Positions 13,245 to 43,506 of a stretch of DNA of 43,506 nucleotides are shown in pieces. Position numbers and translations under genes: made by a program. Under the pieces are notes generated by a model, which searched no databases, was not told where the DNA came from, and saw only the letters and a program-made list of their open reading frames with translations. The DNA comes from a virus: the IMG/VR virus record IMGVR_UViG_3300036806_000477, positions 1 through 43,506 of that record; one strand, given 5' to 3'. Numbering within the stretch: position 1 is the stretch's first letter; the number at the start of each line of letters is the position of its first letter.

Positions 13245-13256
13245 CGGGAGGCCGAG

Positions 13257-13475: not shown

Positions 13476-13490
13476 CACACAGGATGAACG

Positions 13491-20193: not shown

Positions 20194-20645
20194 TGCACAT
20201 CCGCACATACGGCAGGGTAACGGACCCGAAGTCTGGAGCGAGGTGGTGGGTCGATGTCGAGTGCGACATGAACGATCAGCCGGATAGCGTCTATCTGACT
20301 GCCCTCATTCAGACGCTCAAGCTGAACTGGGGCGAAAGTCCGTTCTTCGGAGACTGGGGCATCCCGGCGCATCAGTCTGTCGTGCAGCAGGTCTTCCCGG
20401 ACTATTACGTGCTGCTGACGCAGAAGCGCTATGCGCCCTACTTCATGAGCCTGGGGATCGTAAAGCAGCCGCTCGATACGCCGACGTATAGCGTCTCGGT
20501 GCAATTCAAGTCGGGTGCCGTCATCTCCACGACGGTGATCCCACAGGCGGTGGTCAACCAGTTCGGGCAGGCTATCCTCGATAGCCACGGTTATCCGACG
20601 CAGGACGACAGCCTATTCATTCACGGTAAATACGTCGGAGTGTGA
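20193..20645 (+). CDS. Baseplate/fibre-associated protein
   Basis: 150 residues, coupled to the giant fibre by TGATG. The core LTALIQTLKLNWGESPFFGDWGI followed by HQSVVQQVFPDYYVLLTQKRYAPYF is a pattern I associate with small proteins of the contractile-tail baseplate cassette. It may belong next to J and DUF2612 and have been separated from them by insertion of the giant fibre. Function unknown. Confidence 0.5.
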   Translation: MHIRTYGRVTDPKSGARWWVDVECDMNDQPDSVYLTALIQTLKLNWGESPFFGDWGIPAHQSVVQQVFPDYYVLLTQKRYAPYFMSLGIVKQPLDTPTYSVSVQFKSGAVISTTVIPQAVVNQFGQAILDSHGYPTQDDSLFIHGKYVGV

Positions 20646-20648
20646 AGC

Positions 20649-20939
20649 ATGCCGCAGCTCCCAGCTATGGGCGTTCCTGGCGCCGCGTCGGCCGTAGTCG
20701 CTGTGACAGCCGCCACGGCGCTCAAGACTTCACCGGCTTGGCTGATCTCAGTCTCGGTCGTCAGTGCCGGGACGGCTGGCGGCGTATTCGACGCTGCCGC
20801 TACAGGCACCGCCACCACCGGCAAGCAGATTGCCGTCATCCCAGCGACGGTCGGTGTCTATACATTCAACTGGCCTTGCGCCACGGGCATCGTGGTGGCG
20901 CCGGGTGGTTCGCAGAACCTGGCGGTCAGCCTGGCATGA
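20649..20939 (+). CDS. Small beta-rich structural protein, paralogue of 5177-5482
   Basis: 96 residues, three bases after the previous stop. The stretch GGVFDAAATGTATTGKQ ... IPATVGVYTFNWPC ... LAVSLA matches the protein at 5177-5482 without gaps, while the first 40 residues differ. It overlaps the next gene by ATGA. Probable surface or decoration role; unknown. Confidence 0.6.
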   Translation: MPQLPAMGVPGAASAVVAVTAATALKTSPAWLISVSVVSAGTAGGVFDAAATGTATTGKQIAVIPATVGVYTFNWPCATGIVVAPGGSQNLAVSLA

Positions 20940-22327: not shown

Positions 22328-22356
22328 GGGAGCCTGATGGTCTAGTATTGTCTCAA

Positions 22357-22989
22357 ATGAAAGCAACTCGTTTCAGCACGGGTAGACCTTGTAAAAGAGG
22401 TCATATAACAGAGCGGGCCTCAAGCAATGGCGGGTGCCTTGAATGCATAAGGCTTCGTCGGCAGACGCCAGAATATAAAGCCGGCGCGAAGCGTCGGTTC
22501 GATCGCTACATTGAGCGTAGCGGCGATGAGAATAGGGCTTACAAGGCGGCATGGGGTCAGGGGAACAAGGCGCGCCTATCGGCAGAAGCAGCAACACGCT
22601 ACGCGGCAAATCCTGGTCCAGTCATAGAGCGATCTCATCGGCGATATTGGGCTAATCGCGACCAACTGATGGAATATGGTCGTGCTAGATATCTCCTGAA
22701 CCCGGAGCCATACAAGGCGCGAGCGCGGGCAAGGGAAACGGCAACAGTAGGCAGGTTATCTCGGGGATTGACACTATTGCTAATGCAAGAACAAGGCTAT
22801 CAATGCCCTTATTGTTGGACCAGACTTGATGGGAAGAATGTTCATATGGACCATTACCTCCCATTATGGCTTGGTGGTCTTCATAAGGACAGCAACATCC
22901 AGCTTACGTGCGGACCTTGTAACCTCAGGAAAGGTCATAAGCACCCGGCTGTTTTCTTTAAGACCATATGGCAAGCTGAGACAGCCTGA
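22357..22989 (+). CDS. HNH endonuclease (probably homing)
   Basis: 210 residues from the ATG at 22357. C-terminal HNH/zinc domain: C150-P-Y-C153, D165-H166 in MDHYLPLWLGG, N in SNIQL, C185-G-P-C188 and NLRKGH. An N-terminal C12/H16/C27/C30 set may bind a second zinc. The middle is a basic helical DNA-binding stretch rich in Arg, Tyr and Asn. Base use is more AT rich than its neighbours and it sits alone between two fibre genes, as free-standing phage homing endonucleases do. The next gene starts within its stop codon. Confidence 0.8.
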   Translation: MKATRFSTGRPCKRGHITERASSNGGCLECIRLRRQTPEYKAGAKRRFDRYIERSGDENRAYKAAWGQGNKARLSAEAATRYAANPGPVIERSHRRYWANRDQLMEYGRARYLLNPEPYKARARARETATVGRLSRGLTLLLMQEQGYQCPYCWTRLDGKNVHMDHYLPLWLGGLHKDSNIQLTCGPCNLRKGHKHPAVFFKTIWQAETA

Positions 22990-27485: not shown

Positions 27486-27758
27486 ATGCTTAGAACAGTA
27501 ATGGTAGTTGCCTTTGTGCTTACCATAGCTGCACCTGCCTTTGCGCAGTCAGTAGGCAGCGGCAACGGAAACGGCAATGGCAACTTTGGGAACGGGAACG
27601 GAAACGGAAACGGAAATTTCAACACCGGCTCGTTCCTGGGTAATGGCTTTGGGAATGGCGGCGTCGGGAACGGGATCGGCAATGGTGGTGGGAATGGGAC
27701 GCCACCTGCCAACATCTGCAATACGTTCTACGGTCAGTTTCTCCCCGAGTGTCATTAA
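27486..27758 (+). CDS. Secreted Gly/Asn-rich protein
   Basis: 90 residues with a clear signal peptide: basic start MLRTV, hydrophobic core VVAFVLTIA and a cleavage site near APAFA-Q. The mature part is a GNGNGN-type low-complexity tract of about 45 residues, then a short C-terminus with two Cys residues (ANICNTFYGQFLPECH). Proteins of this style are common in alphaproteobacterial chromosomes but unusual in a tail gene cluster; it may be a moron altering the host envelope. The tract is encoded by near-repeats (gggaacgggaacgg) and may be length-variable. Confidence 0.6.
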   Translation: MLRTVMVVAFVLTIAAPAFAQSVGSGNGNGNGNFGNGNGNGNGNFNTGSFLGNGFGNGGVGNGIGNGGGNGTPPANICNTFYGQFLPECH

Positions 27759-30325
27759 GCCGTCGCCTTGGGCATAATTTATATGCCCGGATACCTTCTT
27801 ATAGGCCTGTTCGGCTACCAGACCATCGCACGCTAAGGCGACTGCGCACAGAGGGTCAATGTCCTCAGCCGGTCCCTGGCGGGAACTCTACTTACACTGT
27901 CATCTGCACGGTCACTGGAGATGGGGAACTTGGTAACACCATTTGTGGTTGGTCAGGCCGGATAGCTGATGCTCCATCGCGGCTTTGGTTCTGGGATGGA
28001 ATAGTCCCGTGGACTGCGTTAACCACTGATTTCATCACGACCACTGGATCTGGGCAGTCATGGTCTGTTCCTTCGGATTGGGATAGCTCCAGCAATCAGA
28101 TCGAGGGCATTGGTGAAGGCGGGGCCGGCGCGACCAATACGAATACTGCTGGCAACGGTGGCGGTGGTGGTGCTTATGCTATTGCGCTGAATGTCTCGCT
28201 CACACCCGGCGGAACCGCATCATATAATCTCGGTGCGGGCGGCACTGGCACCGATACTCTTTTTGTCGATGGCAGCACCTTCGTTGCGAAGGCTGGGGCC
28301 AATGGCCCGGGAACTGGCAATATCGGTGGCGCGGGTGGTGTTGCAGCTTCTTGCATTCCGTCTACAGGCGCTTTCAGTGGTGGTAGTGGTGGTGGAGGTG
28401 GAAACACCCGAGCTGCTGGAGGCGGCGGCGGGGCTGCTGGTCCCGGTGGTGCTGGGAAAGCCGGCGGGGCATCGGGCGGCGCACAAGGTGGCGCCGGAAG
28501 TGGTGGCGGATCGGACGGTGGATCATCTACTGCCGGCACAAGCGGCACCAGCAATACGGGAAAGGTCGGTGGGGCAGGGAATGGTGGCACTGGCGGTGGA
28601 ACCGCTGGGACTGGCGCAAATGGTGGAGATGGAACCGCAGGAACAGGAGCGGGCGGCGGGAGTAGCGGGACTAGCGTTGCTTCCGGGTTTCATGGGGGCG
28701 CAGGCGCAACTGGTATATCCAGTTGGACACAAACAGTAGGAGGTCAGACAGCCGGAGCCGGCGGGGGAGGCGGTGGCTCGGCTAACAGTAACGCCGCTGG
28801 TGTATCGACTGGCGGCGCGGGCGGTCTGTATGGAGGAGGGGGTGGATCTGCCGCCTCTGTAAGCACGAAGACAAATGGTGCTGGCGCGCAAGGGATACTT
28901 GTCGCGACTTACACACCATCAGGTGGCGGTGGCACTGCATATACAGTAGCGGGCGAGATCGACGGCGCGGGCACTATTCCCGCTGCGGATGTCATCCTGG
29001 CCGCAGTCAGGGCCGCGGTATTCGGCATTGCCAGCATTTCCGCAGCCGGGAACATCAGCGGCGTCGTTGCTGGCAAGATCGATGCTGCTGCGTCCATTTT
29101 CTCCTATGCGAACGTCAAGGGCGTTGTCTCGGGGGAAATAGACGGGCAGGCAGGAATAGCCGCGAACGCGACCCGCGTTCGATATGCTGGGGCACGGGCG
29201 GATGCCGCAGGATCGATCAGCTCCTCAGCAAATCTCTGGGGTCTCTCCGCGGCTAGGGGTGATGGTTCCGGCTCTGCGGCAGCGGCGGCCAACCTCTGGG
29301 CGGTACTGCGCGGAGAGATTGACGCGGCCGGCGCTATTGCCGGGGACGCTTCGCGCCTGCCTGCACCAGCCGGCGTCTCAGGAGAGACCGACGCTACAGG
29401 CAGCATCTCCGGCTCGCTGGTGCTACGAGCAGCCGCTGGCGCAACACTCCCCGGTGCTGGAGGGAATGCCTCCAGGACGACGCTGTGGGCGGTTGTGGGT
29501 GGCCTGGAGGCAGGCTCCGCTAATGCAGCGGCCAATCCCATGCGGGTGGCCTATGCGGGCGCCCAGGTGGACGGGGCGGCCGGATCCTCTGGCACAGCCA
29601 ACCTGCGGATGGCCGCCACAGGCATCCTGGCCGGGGCTGCGGCCTTCAGCAGCCAGGTCGTCCTGCGGTTGGTTCTTGCGGGCGAGATCGACGGCGCAGG
29701 GTCGCTCGCGGGGCGCCTTTCGGGTGTCGTGGCCTGGCAGACCTCGGGCGTGCTGGCCGGCAGCGCGGCGGTCACATCAACCACCACCGTGCGGATGGCC
29801 GCTGGTGGCGTCTTCCCCGGCCTCGCCTCCGTGGCCGGCACGCCCGTCTACCTGTTCCGGCTCTCTGCCGCTGCGGCTGCCACTGGCGGCGTCACAGGGG
29901 CACCCTATCGCGTCACCTACGCCGGCAGCCAATTGGATGCGGCCGCCGACACCTCAGGGCGTATCGCGCTGCTGGCGCCGTTCGCTGCCGAAGTCGATGC
30001 CACCGCCGCCGCGCTGGGTGGGATTGCGCTGCTGGTCGATGCGGCCGGCGAGATCGATGGTGTCGCAGTCATCTCGGCGGGCGGCTCGGTCGTGGCCGCG
30101 CTTGCCGGCGAGTTCGATACCGAAGCTGATGTCTTTGGCGCCCTCGCGCAACGCGGCGAGGTCTTCATGGGCGGCGAGTTCGATGGCGCTGGCGGCTTCT
30201 CTGCCGGTTGGCAGCAATTCGTCGACGAGGGCGCAAGGCTGCCGCCACGAGCTCGGGGCGCGAGCGCTGGTCTCATGGGACGCGGGGCGGGACTGCCGCC
30301 ACACGACAGAGGACGGGCAGCATGA
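27749..30325 (+). CDS. Glycine-rich repeat tail fibre (start uncertain)
   Basis: Up to 858 residues if the GTG at 27749 is used. The first 45 or so residues are Arg-rich and unlike a fibre, so the true start probably lies further on; no ATG, GTG or TTG with a good ribosome site is visible in frame before the conserved part. From residue about 90 there is TTGSGQSWSVPSDWDSSSNQIEGIGEGG, the entry of glycine-rich fibre domains, then about 270 residues of poly-Gly sequence. Residues about 397-820 are roughly 20 copies of a module of about 20 residues (GEIDGAGSLAG type). The product is probably a long, extended fibre or adhesin. Confidence 0.55.
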   Translation: MSLSRRLGHNLYARIPSYRPVRLPDHRTLRRLRTEGQCPQPVPGGNSTYTVICTVTGDGELGNTICGWSGRIADAPSRLWFWDGIVPWTALTTDFITTTGSGQSWSVPSDWDSSSNQIEGIGEGGAGATNTNTAGNGGGGGAYAIALNVSLTPGGTASYNLGAGGTGTDTLFVDGSTFVAKAGANGPGTGNIGGAGGVAASCIPSTGAFSGGSGGGGGNTRAAGGGGGAAGPGGAGKAGGASGGAQGGAGSGGGSDGGSSTAGTSGTSNTGKVGGAGNGGTGGGTAGTGANGGDGTAGTGAGGGSSGTSVASGFHGGAGATGISSWTQTVGGQTAGAGGGGGGSANSNAAGVSTGGAGGLYGGGGGSAASVSTKTNGAGAQGILVATYTPSGGGGTAYTVAGEIDGAGTIPAADVILAAVRAAVFGIASISAAGNISGVVAGKIDAAASIFSYANVKGVVSGEIDGQAGIAANATRVRYAGARADAAGSISSSANLWGLSAARGDGSGSAAAAANLWAVLRGEIDAAGAIAGDASRLPAPAGVSGETDATGSISGSLVLRAAAGATLPGAGGNASRTTLWAVVGGLEAGSANAAANPMRVAYAGAQVDGAAGSSGTANLRMAATGILAGAAAFSSQVVLRLVLAGEIDGAGSLAGRLSGVVAWQTSGVLAGSAAVTSTTTVRMAAGGVFPGLASVAGTPVYLFRLSAAAAATGGVTGAPYRVTYAGSQLDAAADTSGRIALLAPFAAEVDATAAALGGIALLVDAAGEIDGVAVISAGGSVVAALAGEFDTEADVFGALAQRGEVFMGGEFDGAGGFSAGWQQFVDEGARLPPRARGASAGLMGRGAGLPPHDRGRAA
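27770..27788. repeat. Inverted repeat GGGCATA-N5-TATGCCC
   Basis: A perfect 7-base inverted repeat with an ATTTA loop just after the secreted-protein gene. There is no T-run after it, so it is more like an operator than a terminator. Its arms overlap the uncertain start region of the following fibre gene. Confidence 0.4.
28939..30204 (+). repeat. Tandem coding repeat, about 20 GEIDGAGSISG-type modules
   Basis: A degenerate unit of about 60-66 bases coding [VLA]-x-G-E/K-I-D-G/A-A-G/A-S-I-x-G plus a strand of about 9 residues. Best copies: AGEIDGAGTIP, SGEIDGQAGIA, RGEIDAAGAIAG, AGEIDGAGSLAG, AGEIDGVAVIS, GGEFDGAGGFSAG. Related copies occur at 5026-5130, 15700-16010 and 21265-21640. Confidence 0.65.
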
Positions 30326-32874: not shown

Positions 32875-32896
32875 TTCCCTATGCCAATTCTTCCCG

Positions 32897-32917
32897 TGTG
32901 TGACTATTTGTCACACA
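32897..32917. promoter_or_regulatory. Inverted repeat TGTGTGAC-N5-GTCACACA
   Basis: A perfect 8-base inverted repeat with a TATTT loop, 17 bases before the likely start of the HAF-repeat gene. It resembles a CRP-like palindrome but with one base too many in the spacer. Likely operator or 5'-UTR hairpin controlling that gene. Confidence 0.55.
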
Positions 32918-32934
32918 AATGGAGGAACGCCGCG

Positions 32935-34095
32935 ATGACCATAGGCTCTTACACATTCCAGACCGTCTCAGTCGCTGGCGCTACGGATGGCACTTGGCTC
33001 GGTGGGATTAACAACGCCGGGGAGGCGACCGGCTATGATGCCGGGTTCGGCGCCGACCATTACCCGCACGCCTTTACCTACGCGAATAGTGTGATATCGC
33101 CCATCACGGTCAATGACTCCAGTCCCAATCAGGCCACCGCCGCTGGCATAAACAATGGGGGGCAGCTTGTAGGAACGGAGGGCAGCTCCCCAGTCGGGGT
33201 ATTTGGCTACCTTCGGTCACCAGATGGTTCTGTGCAGCGAATAAGCGGCATCACACCCAGCAGTCAGTTTGGACTATTCGACCAAGCATATGGCATCAAC
33301 GATATGAGCCAAGTTGTTGGAGCTGACTTCGCCTTTTCCCAACACCACGAAGGCTTCCTTTGGCAAAACGGAACTATGTCGCTCTTCCAGGTGACCGGCG
33401 CGGCGGCTACCGAAGGCCACGGCATCAACAACGCTGGCGTCATCGTCGGCACGGCGGACAGTTATGGCTTCATCGACTTCGGCGGCCAGATGTTCCTGAT
33501 GGCTATGCCGGGCGCTACCATCACGGACCCGATGGCCGTCAATAATGCTGACACGGTAGCTGGTAGCTACTTCGATGGTACACACTGGCACGGCTGGATC
33601 GATCAGGCCGGTAGCTTGACCTTCATCGACGCTCCAGGAGCCGCCGATACACGGATCACAGGGATAAACGACTCCAACCAACTGTCCGGCTCTTTCACGC
33701 CGGCATCGGGTGGTCCTGTCCAGGGCTTCATCGCCACCGATCCGCCAGATCCGTCGTCGATCATGGTTCGCGAGGATTACATTGCGTCGCTCGGGCGGGA
33801 TGCCGACGCAGGCGGCTTGGGCTTCTGGGTCAATCAACTGAATAGCGGATTGGCAGCGTCGGCATTTGTCGCGGACCTAACAGGATCGGCAGAATTCCAA
33901 GCGCTGCACGGCCAGCAATCGGACGCGCAATACGTCGATAGCCTGTATGTCAACGCACTGGGCCGTCCCGCCGAGGCCGGTGGGCAAGCTGGGTGGGTCG
34001 GGGTTCTTCAGTCTGGCGCTACTCGGGGTGATGTAATGGCAGCGATTGCTGGATCATCCGAGGGACAGCAGCACTTCGCGCTGGGGCATGGATAG
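32935..34095 (+). CDS. HAF-repeat and DUF4214 extracellular protein
   Basis: 386 residues from the ATG at 32935, which has GGAGG 9 bases upstream; the earlier in-frame ATG (32881) would translate through the inverted repeat. Residues about 5-270 contain HAF-type repeats (GINNAGEATGYD, GINNGGQLVGTE, GINDMSQVVGAD, GINNAGVIVGTA, GINDSNQLSGSF), probably a beta propeller. Residues about 280-380 are a DUF4214 domain (YIASLGRDADAGGLGFWVNQL, YVNALGRPAEAGGQAGWV). Both are known from secreted or S-layer-like bacterial proteins. No signal peptide is visible. Probably a host-derived accessory gene (moron) or an unusual adhesin. Confidence 0.7.
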   Translation: MTIGSYTFQTVSVAGATDGTWLGGINNAGEATGYDAGFGADHYPHAFTYANSVISPITVNDSSPNQATAAGINNGGQLVGTEGSSPVGVFGYLRSPDGSVQRISGITPSSQFGLFDQAYGINDMSQVVGADFAFSQHHEGFLWQNGTMSLFQVTGAAATEGHGINNAGVIVGTADSYGFIDFGGQMFLMAMPGATITDPMAVNNADTVAGSYFDGTHWHGWIDQAGSLTFIDAPGAADTRITGINDSNQLSGSFTPASGGPVQGFIATDPPDPSSIMVREDYIASLGRDADAGGLGFWVNQLNSGLAASAFVADLTGSAEFQALHGQQSDAQYVDSLYVNALGRPAEAGGQAGWVGVLQSGATRGDVMAAIAGSSEGQQHFALGHG

Positions 34096-34109
34096 GGTCG
34101 TAGGGTTGC

Positions 34110-34259
34110 TCATGGGTGATCTTCCAAAGAGTCATACATGGCCTTTCCCAACCTCTGCACGCATTGAGGGCACCTAAGGCGCCACAGAGGCGTAAAGAAC
34201 CTCTCGCCGCATTCATGACAGCGCAGCAAGGTGGGCGTCTGGTTATTCGGTTTGTCCAC
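34110..34259 (-). CDS. 49-residue zinc-ribbon protein
   Basis: GTG at 34259, 49 residues: TLLRCHECGERFFTPLW then RCPQCVQR, two C-x2-C knuckles spaced for one zinc site. It overlaps the end of the gene before it by 17 bases and ends 14 bases from the HAF-repeat gene, so it is the last gene of the leftward operon. The zinc motif and tight packing make it convincing despite its size. The N-terminus (MDKPNNQTPT) faintly recalls the N-S-T-T tag of its operon partners. Confidence 0.6.
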   Translation of the reverse strand: MDKPNNQTPTLLRCHECGERFFTPLWRLRCPQCVQRLGKAMYDSLEDHP

Positions 34260-34686
34260 GCAAATTCTCCTGCGCTCGTTTCACTGCCTTATTGAAACCT
34301 GGCACACTCATCTTAGCTGCCTTCGCCCCCCGCTTCGTGCCGAGGGTGTTGAACCACTCCAATATGGTCGTCTGGGAACGGTCGGTTCTGTCGTTCATCT
34401 CCAGCGATGCCATCTGCATCGCAAAGCCGTCGATCATTTCCATGATGCCGAGACGCATTTCCTTAGCAATGTCAGTTTGGCTGCCACCGATGCTCTGGCC
34501 GAGGAGTTGGGCGCAGGCCACGATAACGTCCGCGTGCTTTGCCCTGCATTCCGCCGTCTCGTCATTGATCGCAGCAATGATACTACGGACCCCGACCATG
34601 CTCGCATTGTTACGGATGATCCTTGACCATTCCCTGGCATAAGCCGTGGTGGAGTTCTGCGGCTCCTGATCTGCATTCATGGCCAT
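34243..34686 (-). CDS. Hypothetical helical protein with N-S-T-T tag
   Basis: 147 residues from the ATG at 34686 (AAGGAT upstream); a second ATG two codons on is equally usable. N-terminus MAMNADQEPQNSTTAYAREW carries the tag shared in this operon. The body is helical (MASLEMNDRTDRSQTTILEW) with a basic C-terminus (KRAQENLRG). Upstream in-frame sequence back to 34836 overlaps the previous gene and is not used. Function unknown. Confidence 0.6.
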   Translation of the reverse strand: MAMNADQEPQNSTTAYAREWSRIIRNNASMVGVRSIIAAINDETAECRAKHADVIVACAQLLGQSIGGSQTDIAKEMRLGIMEMIDGFAMQMASLEMNDRTDRSQTTILEWFNTLGTKRGAKAAKMSVPGFNKAVKRAQENLRGQTE

Positions 34687-34865
34687 TCTACATATCCTTT
34701 CCCATCGCATTGGCCGCATGAGATACGCGTCCCTCCGTTCGGATTGTTCCTCTCGAATGGCGCGATGAACCAGCACACGACGTTGAACAGGGCGGGGCCG
34801 AACAACACGTGTCCCTTCCCGCCGCACGAGGGGCATCGGACGACTGTCGATGAGTTATCGGTCAT
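34677..34865 (-). CDS. DnaJ-type zinc-knuckle protein with N-S-S-T tag
   Basis: 62 residues from the ATG at 34865, overlapping the previous stop by ATGA. MTDNSSTVV is followed by CPSCGGKGHV and, after a hydrophobic stretch, CGQCDGKGYV: two C-x2-C-x-G-x-G knuckles as in the DnaJ central domain. Other starts further up overlap the neighbour and are rejected. Probable RNA, DNA or protein binding; unknown. Confidence 0.6.
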   Translation of the reverse strand: MTDNSSTVVRCPSCGGKGHVLFGPALFNVVCWFIAPFERNNPNGGTRISCGQCDGKGYVEWP

Positions 34866-35278
34866 GCTGATTTTCCACATTCCAATAAGCGAACCGTTCG
34901 TCTGGCGCGCTGGCGGCAATAAGTGATCAGAGTAATACAAGCCGACTGTTCCTCAGCCGACATTTCCCCAGGATCAAAAATATCAAGAATGACACGCGCA
35001 GCGTCACGGAACGGCCAGTCCTTAGTAATGACCTTTTCCATAGAGGACAATAAAGCCTCCAAGTTCGCGTTCTTTTCTCGGAGCGCAATATCTTCGTCCG
35101 TTACGCGGTCCGCTCCGCAAGCCGAGGGTGTCGTCTGGAAATTGGCCGGCTGATTTTCAATTGGCAAGTGTCCGGTTCCATGACACCCATTGCAGCGCCA
35201 CGGCGATCCATTCTGCCAGAATTGGCCAGTGCCATTGCATGACGGACATTCGACTGTGGTGGAGTTCTGCTCAACCAT
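34862..35278 (-). CDS. DnaJ-type zinc-knuckle protein with N-S-T-T tag
   Basis: 138 residues from the ATG at 35278. MVEQNSTTVE leads into CPSCNGTGQF and CNGCHGTGHL, a paired DnaJ-like zinc site. The C-terminal half is helical (EKNANLEALLSSMEKVI ... WPFRDAARVILDIFDPGEM). It is similar in plan to the neighbour at 34677-34865 but longer. Function unknown. Confidence 0.6.
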   Translation of the reverse strand: MVEQNSTTVECPSCNGTGQFWQNGSPWRCNGCHGTGHLPIENQPANFQTTPSACGADRVTDEDIALREKNANLEALLSSMEKVITKDWPFRDAARVILDIFDPGEMSAEEQSACITLITYCRQRARRTVRLLECGKSA

Positions 35279-35393
35279 GATTTGCAAGCTCCGCTGCCGC
35301 CGCACTATTTATGATGGCCTGCGCTATCTCCCTAGCCAGCCCCATCCCCACTGCTGCACTTGAAGCGCGTTTGTTGGGTGGTAGAGTTCTCAC
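35271..35393 (-). CDS. Small helical protein, possibly frameshifted
   Basis: 40 residues from a GTG at 35393 that overlaps the previous stop (GTGA): NKRASSAAVGMGLAREIAQ followed by AIINSAAAAELANHG. An ATG at 35400 in another frame starts MTSENSTT, the operon's tag, then runs into a stop after 22 residues. Losing one C in ACCACCC (about 35376-35378) would join tag and body into MTSENSTT-NKRASSAAV. So it may be a frameshifted member of the tagged set, or the GTG may be the real start. Confidence 0.45.
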   Translation of the reverse strand: MRTLPPNKRASSAAVGMGLAREIAQAIINSAAAAELANHG

Positions 35394-35611
35394 TGGTCAT
35401 GATTTGCGCGCCCCTGTAGCTGCTTGGTCATCTCGCGGAGATCCGCCCGACGATGGCGCGCTGTGATCCAGTTCCCGAATCTGTGGCGCCACACGAACCA
35501 CCCGCGCTCATACTGCGGCAGCGCGTCTGGCTTCCGTCCATTTGCCGCCACGAATGCGTCCAGCCAGGCTTCCACATCAGGATCAAGAGCCGAAGTCTCC
35601 CGGTCAGGCAT
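35390..35611 (-). CDS. Small Trp-rich phage protein
   Basis: 73 residues. Pattern DPDVEAWLDAFVAANGRKPDALPQY followed by ERGWFVWRHRFGNWI; basic C-terminus. Overlaps both neighbours by a few bases as throughout this operon. No family recognised. Confidence 0.55.
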   Translation of the reverse strand: MPDRETSALDPDVEAWLDAFVAANGRKPDALPQYERGWFVWRHRFGNWITARHRRADLREMTKQLQGRANHDQ

Positions 35612-35792
35612 TTAAAGTCTCCACTGTACGCACGGCTCGCCCAGCAACCCATCCAGCAAGAACATAGGCCAGGACGTTGTTGCCCAATCCATAGGCTTCC
35701 TCCCACTTGTCCGCTTGATGTGGCTGCTTTCCGGAATATCCCGCCTCGTAACCGCTCCGCTCGTAAGCGTCTTCGATCGTCTCGTTGGTCAT
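35604..35792 (-). CDS. Small hypothetical protein
   Basis: 62 residues: MTNETIEDAYERSGYEAGY then a mixed helix ending VAGRAVRTVETLNA. Its start overlaps the stop of the Dam-like gene (ATGA) and its end overlaps the next gene. Unknown. Confidence 0.5.
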   Translation of the reverse strand: MTNETIEDAYERSGYEAGYSGKQPHQADKWEEAYGLGNNVLAYVLAGWVAGRAVRTVETLNA

Positions 35793-36334
35793 AGATGCAA
35801 AAACCTCCCCGCAAGTCCGCTATCCTGAAGTCGGCGAGCGTCATGGTCGCCGTAGGCTACGAGCACTGACGGGGCTCCCGCATTACCGCCTCCTGTATCT
35901 GCTCGTGGCAGCGTTCCGTCTGGGCGATAAAAACAAAGCCTGCCCTTGAAGAACATGACGGCAGCAGCCCGGTCCCATACCGTTTCGAAGAAGATCTCCG
36001 TCTCGGTGCGGGCAAAGATTAGGGCAGTTCCGCGGCCATGATCTGCCATCCGGCGCATCCATGGTGCTATCTGCGCTTTCGGCCCATAAGGCGGATTTAG
36101 CCAAACGCGACCGAACCACTTCCTGTTAAGAGAATTATCGCCGTGAAGCCAGTGAGTGGTTGCCGTATTCCAGGGCCGCGGCATGGGGGCCGCGCAGGGA
36201 TCTAGGTCAAATGGCCCAAGGGCTTCAATAATATAGGGCGGCGTTAGCCACGTGTGGGTATTGGCTCCGCTCGACTGGTGAGAACCAATCCCACCAACCT
36301 TTGCGATCACATCTGGGAAAAGAACGCTAGTCAT
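35789..36334 (-). CDS. DNA N6-adenine methyltransferase (phage Dam type)
   Basis: 181 residues from the ATG at 36334; a start at 36370 adds 12 residues and cannot be excluded. Motifs: SHQSSGANTHTWLTPPYIIEALGPF, DLDPC (43-47), and the catalytic NPPYG at N80-P81-P82-Y83 within VWLNPPYGP. This is the compact phage family that methylates adenine, either to protect phage DNA from restriction or to regulate. The target site cannot be read from the sequence. Confidence 0.75.
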   Translation of the reverse strand: MTSVLFPDVIAKVGGIGSHQSSGANTHTWLTPPYIIEALGPFDLDPCAAPMPRPWNTATTHWLHGDNSLNRKWFGRVWLNPPYGPKAQIAPWMRRMADHGRGTALIFARTETEIFFETVWDRAAAVMFFKGRLCFYRPDGTLPRADTGGGNAGAPSVLVAYGDHDARRLQDSGLAGRFLHL

Positions 36335-36377
36335 CACCAGCAGTTTTATCCTTGGCTGTCGTCTGTTCATTTGCCAC
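36327..36377 (-). CDS. 16-residue leader peptide before the Dam gene
   Basis: GTG at 36377 with AAGGAG 8 bases upstream, the best ribosome site in this area. It codes MANEQTTAKDKTAGDD and ends in TAG overlapping the Dam ATG (ATGACTAG). This would couple Dam translation to the leader. Its start again has an N-x-Q-T-T sequence. Translation is not proven. Confidence 0.35.
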   Translation of the reverse strand: MANEQTTAKDKTAGDD

Positions 36378-36448
36378 GTGATTTTCTCCTTTCGATCGCC
36401 GGTCGCGGATGCAGCCGGTTATAAAGGGTGGGCGGGTATCCGGCGCGG

Positions 36449-36712
36449 TCATGACAGTATTCTTCCTGGCGCTTTCAATGGCCCGCCGCCCCAAACGAAG
36501 TTCTCCGGGCTCTCGGGGCGCTCCACACCGCAGACAGATACCTTCATGTATTCTCTATCGCTCGGATCGCCGCCGTTAATGTGCAGGTCAACGACCTCCC
36601 ATATGCCGACTGGCGGCAGTTCGTGATCGTGGTCAGAAATTCGCCACTGCGCCCAGTAGAAGCCTGGTCTTCTCGGTATTCGTCGTCTGGTTCTGATCGG
36701 CGCTTCACTCAT
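36449..36712 (-). CDS. Small hypothetical protein (PGFYWAQW)
   Basis: 87 residues. RRPGFYWAQWRISDHDHELPPVG followed by GIWEVVDLHINGG is a pattern seen in small phage proteins; basic N-terminus, beta-rich centre. Coupled to the gene before it by ATGA. The 71 bases after it hold only the leader peptide's ribosome site. Confidence 0.55.
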   Translation of the reverse strand: MSEAPIRTRRRIPRRPGFYWAQWRISDHDHELPPVGIWEVVDLHINGGDPSDREYMKVSVCGVERPESPENFVWGGGPLKAPGRILS

Positions 36713-36945
36713 GGCCGCAGCTCCGGTCGTAACTGCATGTAAAGCTCTAACGTCTTCTCGCGCTCGTTGGCTAAGTTCTCGAACGCCTCCGCCTTATTTT
36801 GTAGCGCCGCAATGAGAGCCTCCTGTGATTCGATTTTACGTCCCATTGATATGACAACAGGCGGCTCGGCGGGGTTAGTGACCGCCACCATCACGAGACC
36901 GCCAATTCCGATAGCCGCCATCGCGGCATAAAGCGCTACCATCAT
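36709..36945 (-). CDS. Membrane-anchored coiled-coil protein
   Basis: 78 residues: an N-terminal transmembrane helix (VALYAAMAAIGIGGLVMVAV), then a coiled coil (ESQEALIAALQNKAEAFENL). Topology like an i-spanin or a phage membrane scaffold. It lies in an early-type operon, which argues against lysis. Unknown. Confidence 0.5.
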   Translation of the reverse strand: MMVALYAAMAAIGIGGLVMVAVTNPAEPPVVISMGRKIESQEALIAALQNKAEAFENLANEREKTLELYMQLRPELRP

Positions 36946-36969
36946 CTGTCTGGTCCGGTGGTCTGAGAA

Positions 36970-37194
36970 TCAGCGGCCATGATTTACAACCTCGATAGCA
37001 GCGCGTGCTTCAGCCAGGGCCGTTGCACGAATGACAGCGGGAGCGCGGCCTGGATACTTCGCCGCGAGCGATGACAGGTCGTCCCATGTAAGGCCGGCGC
37101 TGCCGTCTGTGACGATTGGGCTGGCGACATAGACGCGCCAGATCGCCGCCGCCACAGCTTCCTCAAGTGTCGTTTCGGTTTTACCGTCGCTCAC
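36970..37194 (-). CDS. Small hypothetical protein
   Basis: 74 residues beginning MSDGKTETTLEEAVAAAIW; helical with a C-terminal RAAIEVVNHGR. Start overlaps the previous stop by ATGA. The TETTLE near the start is a weak echo of the operon tag. Confidence 0.5.
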   Translation of the reverse strand: MSDGKTETTLEEAVAAAIWRVYVASPIVTDGSAGLTWDDLSSLAAKYPGRAPAVIRATALAEARAAIEVVNHGR

Positions 37195-37427
37195 TGCAAT
37201 GCCCTCTCGATCTCGGTCATGATCGATTCACGCCACAGCTTCGCTTGGTCCTCTGTGCAAGGACCGCCGAGGATGATATAGCTATCGTTGGAGCCGTGGA
37301 GATACACACCAAAGCGATCGTCGCCACACGGAGTTACCAGTAATCTCCCGGCTATCCTGCGTATCGCGGCATCGAACGCAGCGCGCCAGTTGTCGGTGGT
37401 AGAGTTCTGATCGGGTTTGACGTTCAT
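37191..37427 (-). CDS. Hypothetical protein with N-S-T-T tag
   Basis: 78 residues from the ATG at 37427 (the longer frame up to 37679 is a shadow of the neighbour). MNVKPDQNSTTDNWRAAF, then RRIAGRLLVTPCGDDRFGVYL and a C-terminal helix. The tag DNA is almost identical to that at 35377-35391. Function unknown. Confidence 0.55.
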   Translation of the reverse strand: MNVKPDQNSTTDNWRAAFDAAIRRIAGRLLVTPCGDDRFGVYLHGSNDSYIILGGPCTEDQAKLWRESIMTEIERALQ

Positions 37428-37651
37428 AGTGGCGGCTCCGGCAGTGGCATCCAATGTGTCGGCACGACATCCCACGGCTGGACCATGTGACCGCCCCACA
37501 GCCAGCCCCGGTGATCCGCCGACCCGGTTGCCATCTTCCAGTTCCTCACCTCTCCGTTCTCGCTGATATCTGTGACAGCAAAGAGGAGTAGGATTTTCTG
37601 GAGTGGCGCCGTCTCGATCGGCTGCCAGCCTGTCGTTGAGTTCTGGTTCAT
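37424..37651 (-). CDS. DUF551-like protein with N-S-T-T tag
   Basis: 75 residues. After MNQNSTTG comes WQPIETAPLQK and, at the C-terminus, THWMPLPEPPL: the start and end signatures of the DUF551 family of small phage proteins of unknown role. ATGA overlaps on both sides. Confidence 0.65.
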   Translation of the reverse strand: MNQNSTTGWQPIETAPLQKILLLFAVTDISENGEVRNWKMATGSADHRGWLWGGHMVQPWDVVPTHWMPLPEPPL

Positions 37652-37968
37652 GCGTTCTTGACCTCCATGTGGTCGGCAATTCGGATTGCTTCGTCGAAGG
37701 CTGCCAGCATGGCCTTGCGGCTAGCCTTGAAGGTTTCCCAGCCGGTCGCGGCCAGATCTACGTGGGGCCGCATTATGCGCTTTACCAACTGCTCGACCCT
37801 GTAGGCATCCCGCCTCTGCCAGACCCTCACAATCTCGAACTTGATGCCAGGGTTGGCGCTACGCAGCCCTTTTGGGCGCTCTAGAGGATTGTCGGTAAAT
37901 CCGATCTTCCAGGACCCGTCTGACCGCTTCGCCAGATAGGTAAATGGATGAGGAGAGGCATCCATCAT
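37648..37968 (-). CDS. GIY-YIG/T5orf172-like nuclease
   Basis: 106 residues from the ATG at 37968, overlapping the previous stop by ATGA and preceded by GAGGGG. The core FTYLAKRSDGSWKIGFTDNPLER ... LRSANPG has the beta hairpin, K-I-G-F-T and R of the T5orf172 branch of GIY-YIG domains, then helix RVEQLVKRIMRPH. The upstream in-frame extension to 38139 lies inside another gene. It may be a small nuclease or DNA-binding protein. Confidence 0.55.
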   Translation of the reverse strand: MMDASPHPFTYLAKRSDGSWKIGFTDNPLERPKGLRSANPGIKFEIVRVWQRRDAYRVEQLVKRIMRPHVDLAATGWETFKASRKAMLAAFDEAIRIADHMEVKNA

Positions 37969-38633
37969 AGCGAGTATTTTCCCCTCTTTGCGAAGGCGCT
38001 GCTCTTTCGCTTTTGCCCGGCCTGATATTGGTTTTGGGCGACCTTTCTTTTGCCGAGATACAGGATTGCTGTGTTTCGGCTGATCCCGGCCGCCCTGAGT
38101 AAGTCCAGTGTGGGATACTCCTCGGACGGCAGGGACCACTCACGTCTGATGCTCTCGGCGGCGGCCTTCGCCATATTGGCCCTGCGCTGACCGCTGATTG
38201 CCCCAGCAGTCTTCCCAGCTTCTGCCGCCGCTCTGCGGCGCCGCCCATCGGCGAACGCCTTGGCAGCCCCGTGAAGCGTCGCGGCATCCGACTTCGGAGT
38301 GATTATCAGACCAGCGTCGAGGACGTGGATTGTCGCTCCGCGAGCCATCGCCTGCGTGATGGCCTCCATCATGTCCTCTGCCGTCCAAGCCAGGACGGCT
38401 AGGGAAGCTACATAGACGGCTTCATCTCCTCTGCGCCGGCCCGTAGGACGAAGCATGGCATCCCGCTGATCTAGGTCGCCCGGCTTGTGGGAGCGCCGCG
38501 ACCGTGCCGAGAGTTCGTCCTGGTAGAGGGTCGCGCCCTTCGGCCACCCAGGAACCGCTTGCGCCAACAGCGCCTCCTGCTTGGCGAAGGGCCAGACAGG
38601 AGACAGGTTGGACATATAGACCTTGTTCACCAT
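37965..38633 (-). CDS. Serine-recombinase-fold protein with HTH, possibly regulatory
   Basis: 222 residues from the ATG at 38633. The N-terminal 120 residues follow the resolvase plan (VYMSNLSPVWPFAKQEALL ... GATLYQDELSA ... DEAVYVASLAVLAWTAEDMMEAI ... GATIHVLDAGLIITP), but the usual catalytic R-L-x-R region is missing. Near the C-terminus, LDLLRAAGISRNTAILYLG is a helix-turn-helix, followed by a basic tail. It is the first gene of the leftward operon, next to a paired operator, so it is more likely a regulator than a recombinase. The in-frame start at 38705 would lie inside the promoter region. Confidence 0.55.
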   Translation of the reverse strand: MVNKVYMSNLSPVWPFAKQEALLAQAVPGWPKGATLYQDELSARSRRSHKPGDLDQRDAMLRPTGRRRGDEAVYVASLAVLAWTAEDMMEAITQAMARGATIHVLDAGLIITPKSDAATLHGAAKAFADGRRRRAAAEAGKTAGAISGQRRANMAKAAAESIRREWSLPSEEYPTLDLLRAAGISRNTAILYLGKRKVAQNQYQAGQKRKSSAFAKRGKYSL

Positions 38634-38639
38634 GCCCAG

Positions 38640-38668
38640 ACTATAGCAGTTAAAAACGTCATTGACAA
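38640..38668 (-). promoter_or_regulatory. Leftward sigma70-type promoter, leaderless
   Basis: On the minus strand: -35 TTGTCA (38668-38663), 17-base spacer, -10 TATAGT (38645-38640). Each hexamer matches consensus in five of six places. Only six bases separate the -10 box from the ATG at 38633, so the transcript should start at or next to the start codon. Confidence 0.75.
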
Positions 38669-38705
38669 GCATATTCGGTGCTTGACACCGCCCGAAAAAC
38701 GTCAT
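38652..38705. promoter_or_regulatory. Paired 11-base direct repeats in the divergent control region
   Basis: AAAAACGTCAT at 38652-38662 and again at 38695-38705, 43 bases (about four helical turns) apart, one in each promoter. Between them TGACAAGC and GCTTGACA form an imperfect inverted repeat centred near 38674. This looks like an operator for one regulator acting on both promoters. Confidence 0.6.
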
Positions 38706-38983: not shown

Positions 38984-39886
38984 ATGAGCAAAACACTTTG
39001 CATCTACCACGGGAATTGCCAAGACGGCTTTGGAGCGGCTTGGGTGGTGCGCAAGCGCCTTGGCGATAGCGCCGAGTTCCACCCCGGCATCTATCAAGAT
39101 GCGCCACCGGACGTGACTGGACGCGACGTGCTGCTGGTCGATTTCAGCTACAAGCGCCCAGTTCTGGAGGAGCTGGCTAGGACAGCGCGATCGGTGCTGG
39201 TGCTCGATCACCATAAGTCGGCAGCAGAGGATTTGACTGGCTTCTTCTCGCCACCAAGCTGGGATATTTGGACCGGCATTGCCGGCACATACCCGCCGAT
39301 GAGCATGCGCCAGCGCATCACAGCGCTGTTCGACATGGAGCGATCCGGAACAGGCATCACCTGGGATTACTTCTATCCGGACGAGCCGCGCCCCAGGCTG
39401 ATTGACCACATTGAGGACCGAGACCTCTGGCGGTTCAAGCTACCCAACACACGCATGATCACCGCCGCGCTGTTATCGCATCCTTACGACTTCGACCTGT
39501 GGGACCACTACATGTCGAGCGATCTAAAGACGTTGACGCTCGAAGGCGCCGCGATCGAGCGGAAGCATCATCAGGACATCGATAATCTGTTGCCCGTGGT
39601 GCAGCGCGGGATGGTAATCGGTGGCGCGTACATGCCAGTTGCCTGCCTACCGCTGACATTGACCAGCGACGCCGGCCACAAGATGGCATCCGCCGCCAAT
39701 GGCGTGGCTGCATGCTACTGGGACACGAAAGAGGGGCGTGTATTCTCTCTGCGCTCGACCGAGAATGGACCGGATGTCTCTGCGATCGCCAAGCAGTACG
39801 GCGGCGGTGGTCATCCGCACGCTGCTGGCTTCCGTGCCCCCCTCGGCTGGGAGGGCGACGCTGCTACCGCAACGACTGAGACCTAA
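38984..39886 (+). CDS. DHH/DHHA1-family phosphoesterase
   Basis: 300 residues. DHH domain: IYHGNCQDGFGAAW with H9 and D14, LLVDFSY, and the D75-H76-H77-K motif; a metal-binding HIEDRDLW follows. The DHHA1 domain ends with GGGGHPHAAGF (G273-H277). Known members cut nano-RNAs, pAp or cyclic dinucleotides. In a phage it could recycle short RNAs or degrade a defence signal; the substrate cannot be read from the sequence. Start cassette AACCCGGAGCGGAAC upstream. Confidence 0.75.
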   Translation: MSKTLCIYHGNCQDGFGAAWVVRKRLGDSAEFHPGIYQDAPPDVTGRDVLLVDFSYKRPVLEELARTARSVLVLDHHKSAAEDLTGFFSPPSWDIWTGIAGTYPPMSMRQRITALFDMERSGTGITWDYFYPDEPRPRLIDHIEDRDLWRFKLPNTRMITAALLSHPYDFDLWDHYMSSDLKTLTLEGAAIERKHHQDIDNLLPVVQRGMVIGGAYMPVACLPLTLTSDAGHKMASAANGVAACYWDTKEGRVFSLRSTENGPDVSAIAKQYGGGGHPHAAGFRAPLGWEGDAATATTET

Positions 39887-39911
39887 CCAAACCCCAGTTG
39901 AGGATCGAAAG

Positions 39912-40694
39912 ATGAGTGGAGTAATTGAGCGGATGGCGCTTGTTGGAGTCCTTCAAGTAGGCGCACATAAAGACCACAGAGCAATGTGCGTTATGGAGGC
40001 GGTAGCATTCGTCGCCGGAGAGCCGTGGTCGGACCATCCAGAGTGTGCATGTCCAGTCGTCGGCGCTTTTCTTCGTTCCTGGAATGATGGACTGCCGGAT
40101 GAGGAACGCGATGCACTGTTGCGCCCATTGATCCTGCGTGTGGTTGGAACGCGCCGTGACGCAGAGGTTGAGCGGCGGCGAGCATTGATGGCTGCTGACT
40201 GGCTCGTGCGCGTGCATACTCCTGCATGGCTACGGCTGGCGAGGCTGGATAAGCAGGCTGACACTTTGGCGTCCCTGCCGGAGATCACCGACGTGGCGCA
40301 GTGTCCCTCGTTGAGGCCCGCGCTCGCGGCCGCGCGTGATGATGCTCACGCCGCCAGGGCCGCTGCCGGGGACGCTGCCGGGGACGCCGCCGGGGCCGCT
40401 GCCGGGGCCGCCAGGGCCGCCGCCAGGGCCGCTGCCGGGGACGCTGCCGGGGACGCCGCCGGGGCCGCCGCCGGGGCCGCCGCCGGGGCCGCCGCCGGGG
40501 TCGCTGCCTGGGCCGCTGCCGGGGTCGCTGCCTGGGCCGCTGCCGGGGCCGCCGCCGGGGCCGCCGCCGGGGTCGCTGCCTGGGCCGCTGCCGGGGTCGC
40601 TGCCGGGGACGCCGCCGGGGACGCACTAAAGGTTACCCGGTTGGATCTTCAGCAATCGGCGCTTCGGCTCGTTGATCGCATGATTGCAGCCTAA
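39912..40694 (+). CDS. Hypothetical protein with Ala-rich 4-residue repeats
   Basis: 260 residues from the ATG at 39912. The N-terminal 135 residues (MEAVAFVAGEPWSDHPECAC ... ALLRPLILRVVGTRR ... ADWLVRVHTPAWLRLARL) belong to a family seen in phages and actinobacteria, function unknown. Residues about 147-238 are A-A-G/W-x repeats encoded by a 12-base tandem repeat. A short non-repeat tail (LQQSALRLVDRMIAA) closes it. The repeats probably form one long helix. Confidence 0.6.
   Translation: MSGVIERMALVGVLQVGAHKDHRAMCVMEAVAFVAGEPWSDHPECACPVVGAFLRSWNDGLPDEERDALLRPLILRVVGTRRDAEVERRRALMAADWLVRVHTPAWLRLARLDKQADTLASLPEITDVAQCPSLRPALAAARDDAHAARAAAGDAAGDAAGAAAGAARAAARAAAGDAAGDAAGAAAGAAAGAAAGVAAWAAAGVAAWAAAGAAAGAAAGVAAWAAAGVAAGDAAGDALKVTRLDLQQSALRLVDRMIAA
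40351..40623 (+). repeat. 12-base tandem repeat, about 23 copies
   Basis: Unit GCCGCTGCCGGG and variants (GACGCTGCCGGG, GCCGCCGCCGGG, GTCGCTGCCTGG), all in frame, coding A-A-G-D/A/V or A-A-W-A. One 3-base register slip occurs after the fourth to fifth unit. Extremely GC rich; reading frames on both strands remain open, which gives shadow ORFs. Confidence 0.85.
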
Positions 40695-42373: not shown

Positions 42374-42664
42374 CTATCCTATGACCGCAGCGACGGCCAG
42401 GCAGAAGCCGACCACCACGGCCGCCAGGAGCACCGCCGCGACGCGCGGCCATTGCCGCCTGACCTCGATCTCCACCAGCTTCCTCACCTCAGTGCGCGCG
42501 CCAGCGGCTGCCTCGTATGACAGCCGGTGGAGCGTCTCCTCCGTCACCCCATCACGCCGCGCTTCCAGCAACACCCGCAGGACCGGCGCCATCGGATCAC
42601 CGAGGACTTCCGCCTTGCGAACCTCGTGCTCGATCTGCGTCCAGTCGGTCTTCACGGCAGCCAT
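42374..42664 (-). CDS. Small tail-anchored membrane protein (plasmid-type)
   Basis: 96 residues: helical cytoplasmic part (KTDWTQIEHEVRKAEVLG ... EVRKLVEIEVRRQWPR) and one C-terminal transmembrane helix (VAAVLLAAVVVGFCLAVAAVI). It overlaps the P-loop ATPase gene by 13 bases. The pair resembles ATPase/membrane-protein pairs in plasmid mobilisation or stability loci. Confidence 0.5.
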   Translation of the reverse strand: MAAVKTDWTQIEHEVRKAEVLGDPMAPVLRVLLEARRDGVTEETLHRLSYEAAAGARTEVRKLVEIEVRRQWPRVAAVLLAAVVVGFCLAVAAVIG

Positions 42665-43506
42665 GAGCGGATCGGCGCGAAGACCATGTCCATCTGCTGG
42701 AGCCAGCGGTGCACGCGCGCCCGGTCGAGCACCGCCAACGGACCATCGTCGGCCGCGGCCGCGGCAAAGCTGATCCGGCGCTGCTCGATCGCCGGCCCGG
42801 CACCGAACAAGCGCGGCATGTAGACAATAGCAGCGCCCCTGGCCACCGCCTCCCGGAACACCGAATGGCCAATGACCGGCCGATATGCGTCCATGCCCTC
42901 GGCGCGACCCAGGTTGAGCACCAGCGCCGTGGCCCGCGGCCGGAAGCCTGCATCGTCCAGCGCCTTGAGCGCCGTCAGGTCGCTCACACGCGGCGACAGG
43001 AAGGCCAGCAGCACCGGATGCAGATCGGCAGCCTCCATGATCCGGGCCAAGTCAGGAAGCTCCCTGGCCAGCCCTGGAAGCGCCGTATCGCCACCGCCAA
43101 AGTCAATCGCTGCCGAGTGGCTCGTGTCCTTCAGGAACGCCTCCAGCGCCCTCCCCAGCCACTCCTGCGCCGATGCGCCGGCAGGTGGCGTTGCTACGTT
43201 CGGGAAGTAGTGCACCAGCTCGCGGTTCACCGTGTCGACCGTGAGCAGCGCCCAAGGCGTCCGCGGCGCCTGGCAGGCCCAGCGCAGAAACACGGTCTTG
43301 CCGGTGTTCCCTGCCCCGACCACGAACAGCACCTTGCGCTTATCGTCCAGGTTCAAGAGGTCAGATGCGGGGCGCCCGGTATTTTCCACCTGATTACCGG
43401 GTGGTACTAGGTGTGACACGTCAAGCGCCGGTTCCGGCATCTTCTCCAGGCCGAACAGGTTCGACAGGTCGAAGGCCCGCGCCGGGGCCTTGGGCTTCTC
43501 GGTCAT
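42652..43506 (-). CDS. Plasmid-type P-loop ATPase
   Basis: 284 residues; the ATG is the last three bases of the window. Walker A lies in VLFVVGAGNTGKTVFLRW (about residues 59-76), followed by a strand-helix pattern typical of small ParA/StbB/TraL-like ATPases (WALLTVDTVNRELVHYF ... SAAIDFGGGDTAL). The N-terminal 55 residues are Pro rich and probably unstructured. Family members occur on mobilisable or conjugative plasmids. Its presence beside phage genes suggests a phage-plasmid or a plasmid junction. Confidence 0.55.
   Translation of the reverse strand: MTEKPKAPARAFDLSNLFGLEKMPEPALDVSHLVPPGNQVENTGRPASDLLNLDDKRKVLFVVGAGNTGKTVFLRWACQAPRTPWALLTVDTVNRELVHYFPNVATPPAGASAQEWLGRALEAFLKDTSHSAAIDFGGGDTALPGLARELPDLARIMEAADLHPVLLAFLSPRVSDLTALKALDDAGFRPRATALVLNLGRAEGMDAYRPVIGHSVFREAVARGAAIVYMPRLFGAGPAIEQRRISFAAAAADDGPLAVLDRARVHRWLQQMDMVFAPIRSWLP

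Follow-up and report, generated by a model that had tools for sequence, protein, structure and literature searches.

Two standing models of gene exchange in mosaic (lambdoid) phages are hard to tell apart: in one, recombination is targeted to short conserved sequences between genes (PMC3233612; PMC2327257, in the portions of these papers available), whereas the alternative is blind illegitimate joining (PMC3233612, in the same portion) followed by selection. Repeats at gene starts have been described for cluster K mycobacteriophages; according to the part of that report accessible to us, the sequences named SAS and ESAS recur at the starts of different gene families in one genome and are probably linked to translation, SAS being a 13-bp sequence (GGGATAGGAGCCC) immediately upstream of start codons (PMC3203893). 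Tightly packed small accessory genes with ATGA overlaps are present in the mosaic nin region of phage lambda (PMC8022706, in the portion available). Both models bear on the question of how single accessory genes of phages can be exchanged without loss of expression or reading frame. Here we describe an operon of small genes on the minus strand (~38,700 to 34,050) of the IMG/VR virus record IMGVR_UViG_3300036806_000477 (43,506 bases, analysed over its whole length and referred to as the window), many genes of which begin with a short coding tag ending in Thr-Thr or Ser-Thr. This single operon possesses many boundary copies, has a near-identical but rearranged sister, and can be compared with junctions outside of the operon as an internal control; these three features together make the boundary model testable at base resolution. 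We conclude that the tag is probably the coding end of a portable translation-start module, and that the in-frame end of this module probably serves as a recombination seam.

The tagged operon and its rearrangement junctions

The original prediction stated that six otherwise unrelated proteins of the operon carry a common tag near their N-termini. All six tagged starts are present and translate as claimed, and the observation is not only real but wider than first reported: the tags KTETT, DSQTT, NEQTT and SNPTT follow the starts at 37194, 36980, 36377 and 34113, respectively, and further copies are found out of frame (36695-36681) and inside genes (35138-35130 and 34398-34366). The near identity of several DNA copies was confirmed as well. 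On its minus strand, the operon contains CAGAACTCYACCAC three times exactly and once with a single mismatch; two mismatches are found in the copy at 37632. If up to three mismatches were allowed, 12 matches were obtained (shuffle mean, 4.68; 1 of 100 shuffles reached 12).

The tagged operon is present in at least four phage records, i.e., the window, its sister, L128 and L074. The sister (IMGVR_UViG_3300036781_000822; loci L124, L126, L127 and L141) has 99.7-99.9% identity to the window over three long structural stretches. L128 (IMGVR_UViG_3300005563_000004) has a few proteins in common with the window; its first 4143 bases recur exactly as L129, filed under another IMG accession. L074 (IMGVR_UViG_3300025941_000657) possesses a run of ~20 small, mostly tagged genes. 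No open reading frame (ORF) of at least 60 amino acids is common to L074 and the window at 1e-5 (36.2 of 36.7 kb compared), and the start-plus-tag DNA is common to both (38 bp at 87%, 22 bp at 100%). The sister and L128 came from protein scans of viral contigs, and L074 from a DNA pattern scan that returned at least 119 stretches, the stored ones (L005-L123) being processed by script and the ten with at least three matches being viewed closely. The scan of related phages that had been proposed thus yielded the sister, L128/L129 and L074 as tagged relatives among the matches listed. Beyond them, the viral scans gave two distant body matches (L125 and L130). Profile scans of genome contigs with two alignments revealed no relative, and blastn (phages and plasmids) and tblastn (phages) revealed no tagged operon, their matches being limited to a methylase, resolvase-family and DUF551 proteins and a few unannotated or hypothetical ones. 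Short queries made from the start module gave matches at chance level only.

The excess of the motif over chance, likewise proposed as a check, was evident. With a loose criterion for a tag ([ST]T in residues 2-15), 43 of the 60 hand-curated operon genes from the four records are tagged (10/18 in the window, 11/17 in the sister, 5/6 in L128, 17/19 in L074), compared with 121 of 1032 ORFs of at least 150 amino acids from other viral contigs and 3 of 41 in window positions 1-34,000. Note that the operon starts were curated with the tag already known, as automatic gene calls had picked wrong starts for several genes; the control ORFs are longer, were read from the first ATG or GTG and come from contigs that had been retrieved with a tag-like DNA sequence. 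Not included in the count were the resolvase-like or recombinase gene near each operon head and, for L074, one more tagged gene (MSPNDTT); the 36980 gene was counted from 36983 and is thereby one residue longer. As the starts were curated by hand and the tags have common descent, a formal p-value would be unreliable, but the contrast with the controls stands. Local alignment of start windows (-22 to +42) pointed in the same direction: 8 of 153 pairs in the window, 7 of 136 in the sister and 13 of 171 in L074 scored at least 15, compared with 1, 0 and 1 pairs, respectively, after shuffling, and with 0/78, 1/120 and 0/153 pairs for body windows of the same genes.

Alignment of the window strand with the sister (blastn) resolved the operon into blocks of 98-100% identity, which are reordered and partly duplicated. 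All eight sister operon junctions contain the 3' core of the tag, [A/T]C-[C/G]-A-C, whereas none of seven junctions elsewhere between the two records is located on a core (six were scored by script, and one, near 22976/22339 with a 16-bp overlap, by eye). In a position test, seven of eight window block edges were within reach of a core, the reach amounting to 5.2% of the operon-strand positions. The exception, edge 34375, is the far end of a 9-bp overlap (CCAGACGAC), and edges 35130 and 34375 form one junction. Each operon block starts where a tag ends and extends through the following tag or up to an internal seam, except that the last block exits the operon.

Several starts lead into different bodies. 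ATGACCGATAACTCATCGAC continues as VVRCPSC in the window and as DCMWGLD in the sister, MSNPTT as LSMPQ and DRTPQDYA, and MAADSQTT as GPDR-stop and VDTAQMRR, respectively; two bodies are found behind DNSST, SNPTT and ADSQTT if the window is compared with the sister, and behind SKSDTT and SESQTT if the sister is compared with L128. Similarly, one body may follow several starts: the zinc-knuckle body VECPSC.GTGQFW is located behind QNSTT in the window, KTETT and ENKTT in the sister and SESQTT in L128 (window edge 35257 serving two sister junctions), and the body LEEAVAAAIWR behind KTETT or NNPTT. Furthermore, seams are present inside two genes. The zinc-knuckle gene contains CCAGACGAC at 35138-35130, and in the sister the front part of the 35278 gene and the back part of the 34686 gene are joined at this sequence. 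The 34686 gene contains an internal start plus tag, MNDRTDRSQTT (34398-34366), which can be aligned at 82% with MNNRPDRSETT, a gene start of L074 (E 0.003). In the zinc gene, the sequence preceding the internal QTT matches MPDEDHPDRSQTT, likewise a start of L074, at 82% (E 6e-5) for the L128 copy and, weakly, at 74% (E 0.07) for the sister copy. To judge from these alignments, both internal seams look like former gene starts. With its internal start plus tag and block edge 34375, the 34686 gene may be an in-frame fusion of two tagged genes. A recombination seam for gene swaps was among the options raised originally, and the rearranged operon of the sister backs it.

Sequence of the start module and alternative explanations

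In a core-anchored profile of 40 distinct tags, A-C-S-A-C forms the peak, preceded by an A/C-rich stretch, and on the body side only G at +6 stands out (25/40); this profile preferred core-fitting positions and blurs the ribosome site. The start-anchored profile has an upstream G peak at -11/-10 and a loose ATC. The core is located a few to 13 codons inside the ORFs. GGA is found upstream of 32 of the 39 distinct tagged starts and ATC just upstream of 17 of them, compared with 9 and 0, respectively, of 23 starts of structural genes in the list of ORFs. The encoded peptides are diverse (e.g., QNSTT, DNSST, SQTT, SETT, NPTT, KTT, DTT), and the third bases of the core are restricted. In codons counted without positional preference on the 39 distinct tags, ACA or ACT is absent at the first core Thr (0/35, vs 63/170 body Thr codons); at the second, ACT is absent (0/39 vs 31/170) and ACA is frequent (17/39 vs 32/170). 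Predicted folding is weakest at tagged starts (mean -7.45 kcal/mol, n=43), compared with untagged operon starts (-9.36 kcal/mol, n=17) and structural starts (-10.94 kcal/mol, n=23).

The same module recurs before unrelated bodies and in phages without common proteins, and the junctions are located at its 3' core. We picture it as a unit of ~30-50 bp, comprising a GGA-type ribosome site, often an 'ATC' spacer, ATG or GTG, 2-12 mostly A/C-rich codons and the core [A/T]C-S-A-C, which would have been copied before numerous small genes, unrelated to each other, in a single densely packed accessory operon. The unit of exchange would extend from tag to tag and thus comprise a gene body together with the start module of the gene that follows. 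Recombination between modules would attach a different body in frame to a start already present, several of these joins involving no more than ~5 bp (ACSAC) of common sequence. The module would provide each captured body with a working start, and its last bases a minimal common sequence in a fixed frame; short-homology annealing, together with selection retaining in-frame products with good translation starts, could produce the observed pattern. The agent could plausibly be an annealing recombinase. Of the L128 proteins, one matches Sak4-like annealing proteins (E 2e-15, with an equal score for an unnamed family) and another is SSB-like (E 5e-8), and RecET is reported, in the available portion of the source, to recombine stretches of 5-13 bp at about 1e-8 (PMC2327257).

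Several points weigh against this explanation. The known carriers are at least four records, all metagenomic, and further carriers may have escaped the scans; no tag is present in 17 of the 60 operon genes. The eight junctions are not all independent, as one body edge occurs twice, and both edges of one block common to L128 and the sister (L128 1914-2037) are off the seam. In-frame ACSACM always encodes Thr-Thr, and selection by [ST]T forces much of the core, so that constraint on the DNA and on the peptide are not fully separable. No recombinase responsible for the swaps was identified, and the part of the window ORFs scanned contained no annealing recombinase.

A leader that acts in translation only is a real, although lesser, possibility: A/C-rich early codons and a common ribosome site would secure strong coupled translation, and recombination would be incidental. 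The conserved unit is in fact a translation-start region, predicted structure is lower around tagged starts, and two tag-only mini-ORFs overlap the next start. A translation-enhancing leader, one of the options of the original prediction, is therefore compatible with the upstream GGA and the folding values, but alone it explains neither the 3' core in all eight operon junctions nor the third-base restriction. We regard it as unlikely that the motif is kept as a peptide, i.e., as a polar N-terminal handle for a partner, a protease or a location, with genes being retained only if they carry it. Such a handle would fit the presence of the motif on many unrelated small proteins in four phages, the synonymous differences between copies and the swaps that preserve the tag in frame. 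Among the DUF551-like homologues, two of three have Thr-Thr near a possible start (L145, MSDRETT; L125, MSEEATT, read from an internal ATG with the codons ACT ACA) and one (L146) has not, so we did not count the homologues against a peptide role. However, the residues before the last two are very variable, one copy is out of frame, three copies are located on mini-ORFs of 12-19 amino acids, and the third bases of the core are restricted; the conservation of Thr-Thr itself was built in by the [ST]T test. These observations weaken the case for the peptide-level constraint that had been deduced from differing codons, and the sequence analysis revealed nothing that would indicate a tag for targeting, packaging or a protease. 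The peptide tag is the weaker reading compared with the start module with its seam. The original interpretation is accordingly supported in part: the seam is supported, the leader is compatible with the data, and peptide constraint is not supported.

The operon might also be an array of true cassettes, in which a repeated, in-frame combined start and crossover site lets a recombinase exchange whole bodies behind fixed starts. We consider such an array distinctly improbable; in this case, an annealing protein or the invertase-family protein whose gene precedes the array in L074 and L128 would act as the recombinase. It appears still more doubtful that the core is the crossover site of a dedicated phage serine recombinase acting on an integron-like array. 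In L074 and L128, the tagged genes are directly preceded by a gene of the invertase/resolvase family (PHROG 125, E 6e-50 and 2e-53), and a gene near the head of the window operon has a weak resolvase match (E 0.0068). The catalytic motif of these enzymes is DRLxR. The window and sister proteins lack it and have 23% and 18% identity to the L074 protein, the sister head gene has no resolvase match, profile comparison for the window protein was poor (probability 8%, E 0.0041, 60 columns), and in both records other genes separate the head gene from the first tagged gene. Moreover, conservation is low on the body side of the core, and no paired half-sites were seen, although no dedicated search for inverted half-sites was made. 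As only L074 and L128 possess a canonical enzyme (by alignment, Pfam, PHROGs and profile comparison), a serine recombinase as the driver was reduced to a minority reading. Finally, it is very improbable that the junctions arose when strain variants were linked at repeats during metagenome assembly. The four records are without exception metagenomic, and a 128-bp stretch of the zinc-knuckle gene occurs twice in the sister; however, several junctions have ~5 bp in common, which would be far below usual assembler word sizes, L129 equals L128 over all 4143 bases (although perhaps from related reads), and most junctions yield open in-frame genes.

Features of the operon and other genes of the phages

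Table 1. Tagged genes, tag copies and junctions of the operon; positions are those of the window unless stated otherwise.
Feature	Position	Strand	Tag or start	Remarks
Tag of DUF551-like gene 37651-37424	37631-37645	-	QNSTT, CAGAACTCAACGACA; start MNQNSTTGWQ	
Tag of gene 37427-37191	37395-37409	-	QNSTT; start MNVKPDQNSTTD	
Tag of gene 37194-36970	37168-37182	-	KTETT	Sister block junction at 37170, where the sister joins NNPTT to the body that follows KTETT in the window
Tag-only mini-ORF, 12 amino acids	36942-36980	-	DSQTT; MAADSQTTGPDR	Stop overlaps next ATG (36945); junction at 36961, sister runs the same start on into VDTAQMRR...
Out-of-frame tag DNA	36681-36695	-	CAGAACCAGACGACG	Inside gene 36712-36449; QNQTT not read in the frame used
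Tag-only mini-ORF, 16 amino acids	36327-36377	-	ANEQTT; GTG start	Overlaps start of Dam-type methyltransferase (ATG 36334)
22-amino-acid ORF	35332-35400	-	ENSTT; start MTSENSTTQQ	
Zinc-knuckle gene	34862-35278	-	QNSTT; start MVEQNSTTVE	Junction at 35257, used twice in the sister behind other tags
Gene	34677-34865	-	DNSST; start MTDNSSTVV	Junction 34846; different body behind the same start in the sister
Gene	34243-34686	-	QNSTT; start MAMNADQEPQNSTTAY	Block edge 34375
Small zinc-type ORF	34110-34259	-	NNQTPT (degenerate)	Not counted among tagged
19-amino-acid ORF MSNPTTLSMPQREVLLSLG	34054-34113	-	SNPTT	Junctions 34097 and 34100; sister: MSNPTT into DRTPQDYA...
Gene near operon head	37965-38705	-		Weakly resolvase-like (PF00239, E 0.0068, below cut-off); lacks DRLxR
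Sister operon junctions (L127 positions)	7403, 7522-7530, 7800, 8022, 8433, 8818, 9027, 9931			

By its genes, the window phage is of the contractile-tail type. Its major capsid protein has 55-57% identity to counterparts in Pantoea, Klebsiella and Yersinia phages (tblastn), and a baseplate hub and a baseplate wedge/J protein are encoded as well. Between the resolvase-like head gene and the first tagged gene, a single gene (37968-37648) is located in the window. The zinc-knuckle and DUF551-like bodies proposed originally do have matches in Pfam, but both score below the cut-offs (DUF551, 17.9 bits vs 22; DnaJ-type zinc knuckle, 21.9 vs 32.7). The 22-amino-acid tagged ORF (35400-35271 on the minus strand) is followed by GLAREIAQAIINSAAAAELANHG in another frame, which suggests that it is possibly a frame-disrupted gene. 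A repeat protein adjoins the 3' end of the operon both in the window (32881-34095, plus strand) and in L128 (2395-3804, minus strand), with 64% identity over 269 residues; the window copy ends in DUF4214.

Other differences and repeats were noted outside of the operon. A stretch of ~640 bp (22976-22339, minus strand), flanked by a 16-bp overlap, is absent from the sister; it holds most of an ORF that we read as HNH-like (22261-22989) and looks like the insertion or loss of a homing endonuclease. An ORF (39699-40694, plus strand) with a long Ala/Gly/Asp repeat tract (AAGDAAGDAAGAAAG...) aligns with the sister at many offsets. Three predicted tail-region proteins (14963-15940, 20642-22327 and 27749-30325, plus strand) contain recurring, irregularly spaced A-G-E-I-D-G-A-G-S-I-S-G-like motifs and may belong to a common repeat family. 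At the end of the record, 42652-43506 (minus strand) encodes a P-loop protein for which neither Pfam nor PHROGs gave a match at 0.001, and which may represent a plasmid or mobilisation gene.

In L074, genes at 10522-14299 (minus strand) resemble VirD4, VirB11 and VirB10 by eye, and the same record contains a tail-collar gene; for the two of these VirD4/VirB11/VirB10-like genes that were scanned, PHROGs gave no named match. L074 reads like a phage-plasmid or hybrid element. Synechococcus phage MinM2 (L147) was considered as an additional case and rejected: its DUF551 gene starts with SDRETT and a neighbour with PIRETT, but this is near the control rate, [ST]T being found by reading near the start only in these two genes and in one MTTS start among 33 genes. 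The DUF551 gene of MinM2 (9535-9870, minus strand; start MSDRETT) holds ...HPTTGWQPIETAP, with a Thr-Thr/Gly-Trp join as in QNSTT|GWQPIETAP of the window. Two more records (H18 and H19) have the same match as MinM2.

Comparison with described systems

The lambda nin region, with which the operon was compared by the same pair test, behaves differently: for the eleven starts from P to Q, none of 55 pairs scores at least 15. SAS is the nearest repeated start feature found, at least in the portion of its description available. Like SAS, the module is a start feature repeated within a genome, with a GGA/ATC-type upstream part; the 13-bp SAS itself was not found upstream of the tagged starts, where only the G peak at -11/-10 and the loose ATC are present. 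Unlike SAS as described there, the tag is downstream of the start codon and coding, and the rearrangement junctions map to its end.

Integron cassettes are tandem units that are exchanged at a repeated short core. The operon similarly consists of tandem units with a repeated short core, but its units run from tag to tag inside an operon, and the core is part of a coding start. A tyrosine integrase was not found among the proteins scanned, and attC structures were not searched for. If the cassette array were true, it would be a phage counterpart of the integron whose attachment site doubles as the N-terminus of the cassette proteins; were the core recognised by a recombinase, the module would also be a tool for in-frame gene swapping.

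The closest likeness is to the boundary sequences of mosaic phages, as here, too, the junctions are located on a short conserved core (8/8 in the operon, 0/7 elsewhere). In contrast to boundary sequences between genes, however, this core is part of the reading frame, downstream of the start codon, and encodes residues; moreover, many genes of a single operon carry a copy of it, so that one body is found behind several starts and one start before several bodies. Our literature search, which covered titles and the beginnings of abstracts, returned no description of an in-frame N-terminal seam of this kind. The tagged seam is best read as a variant of phage boundary sequences, and its in-frame form as new.

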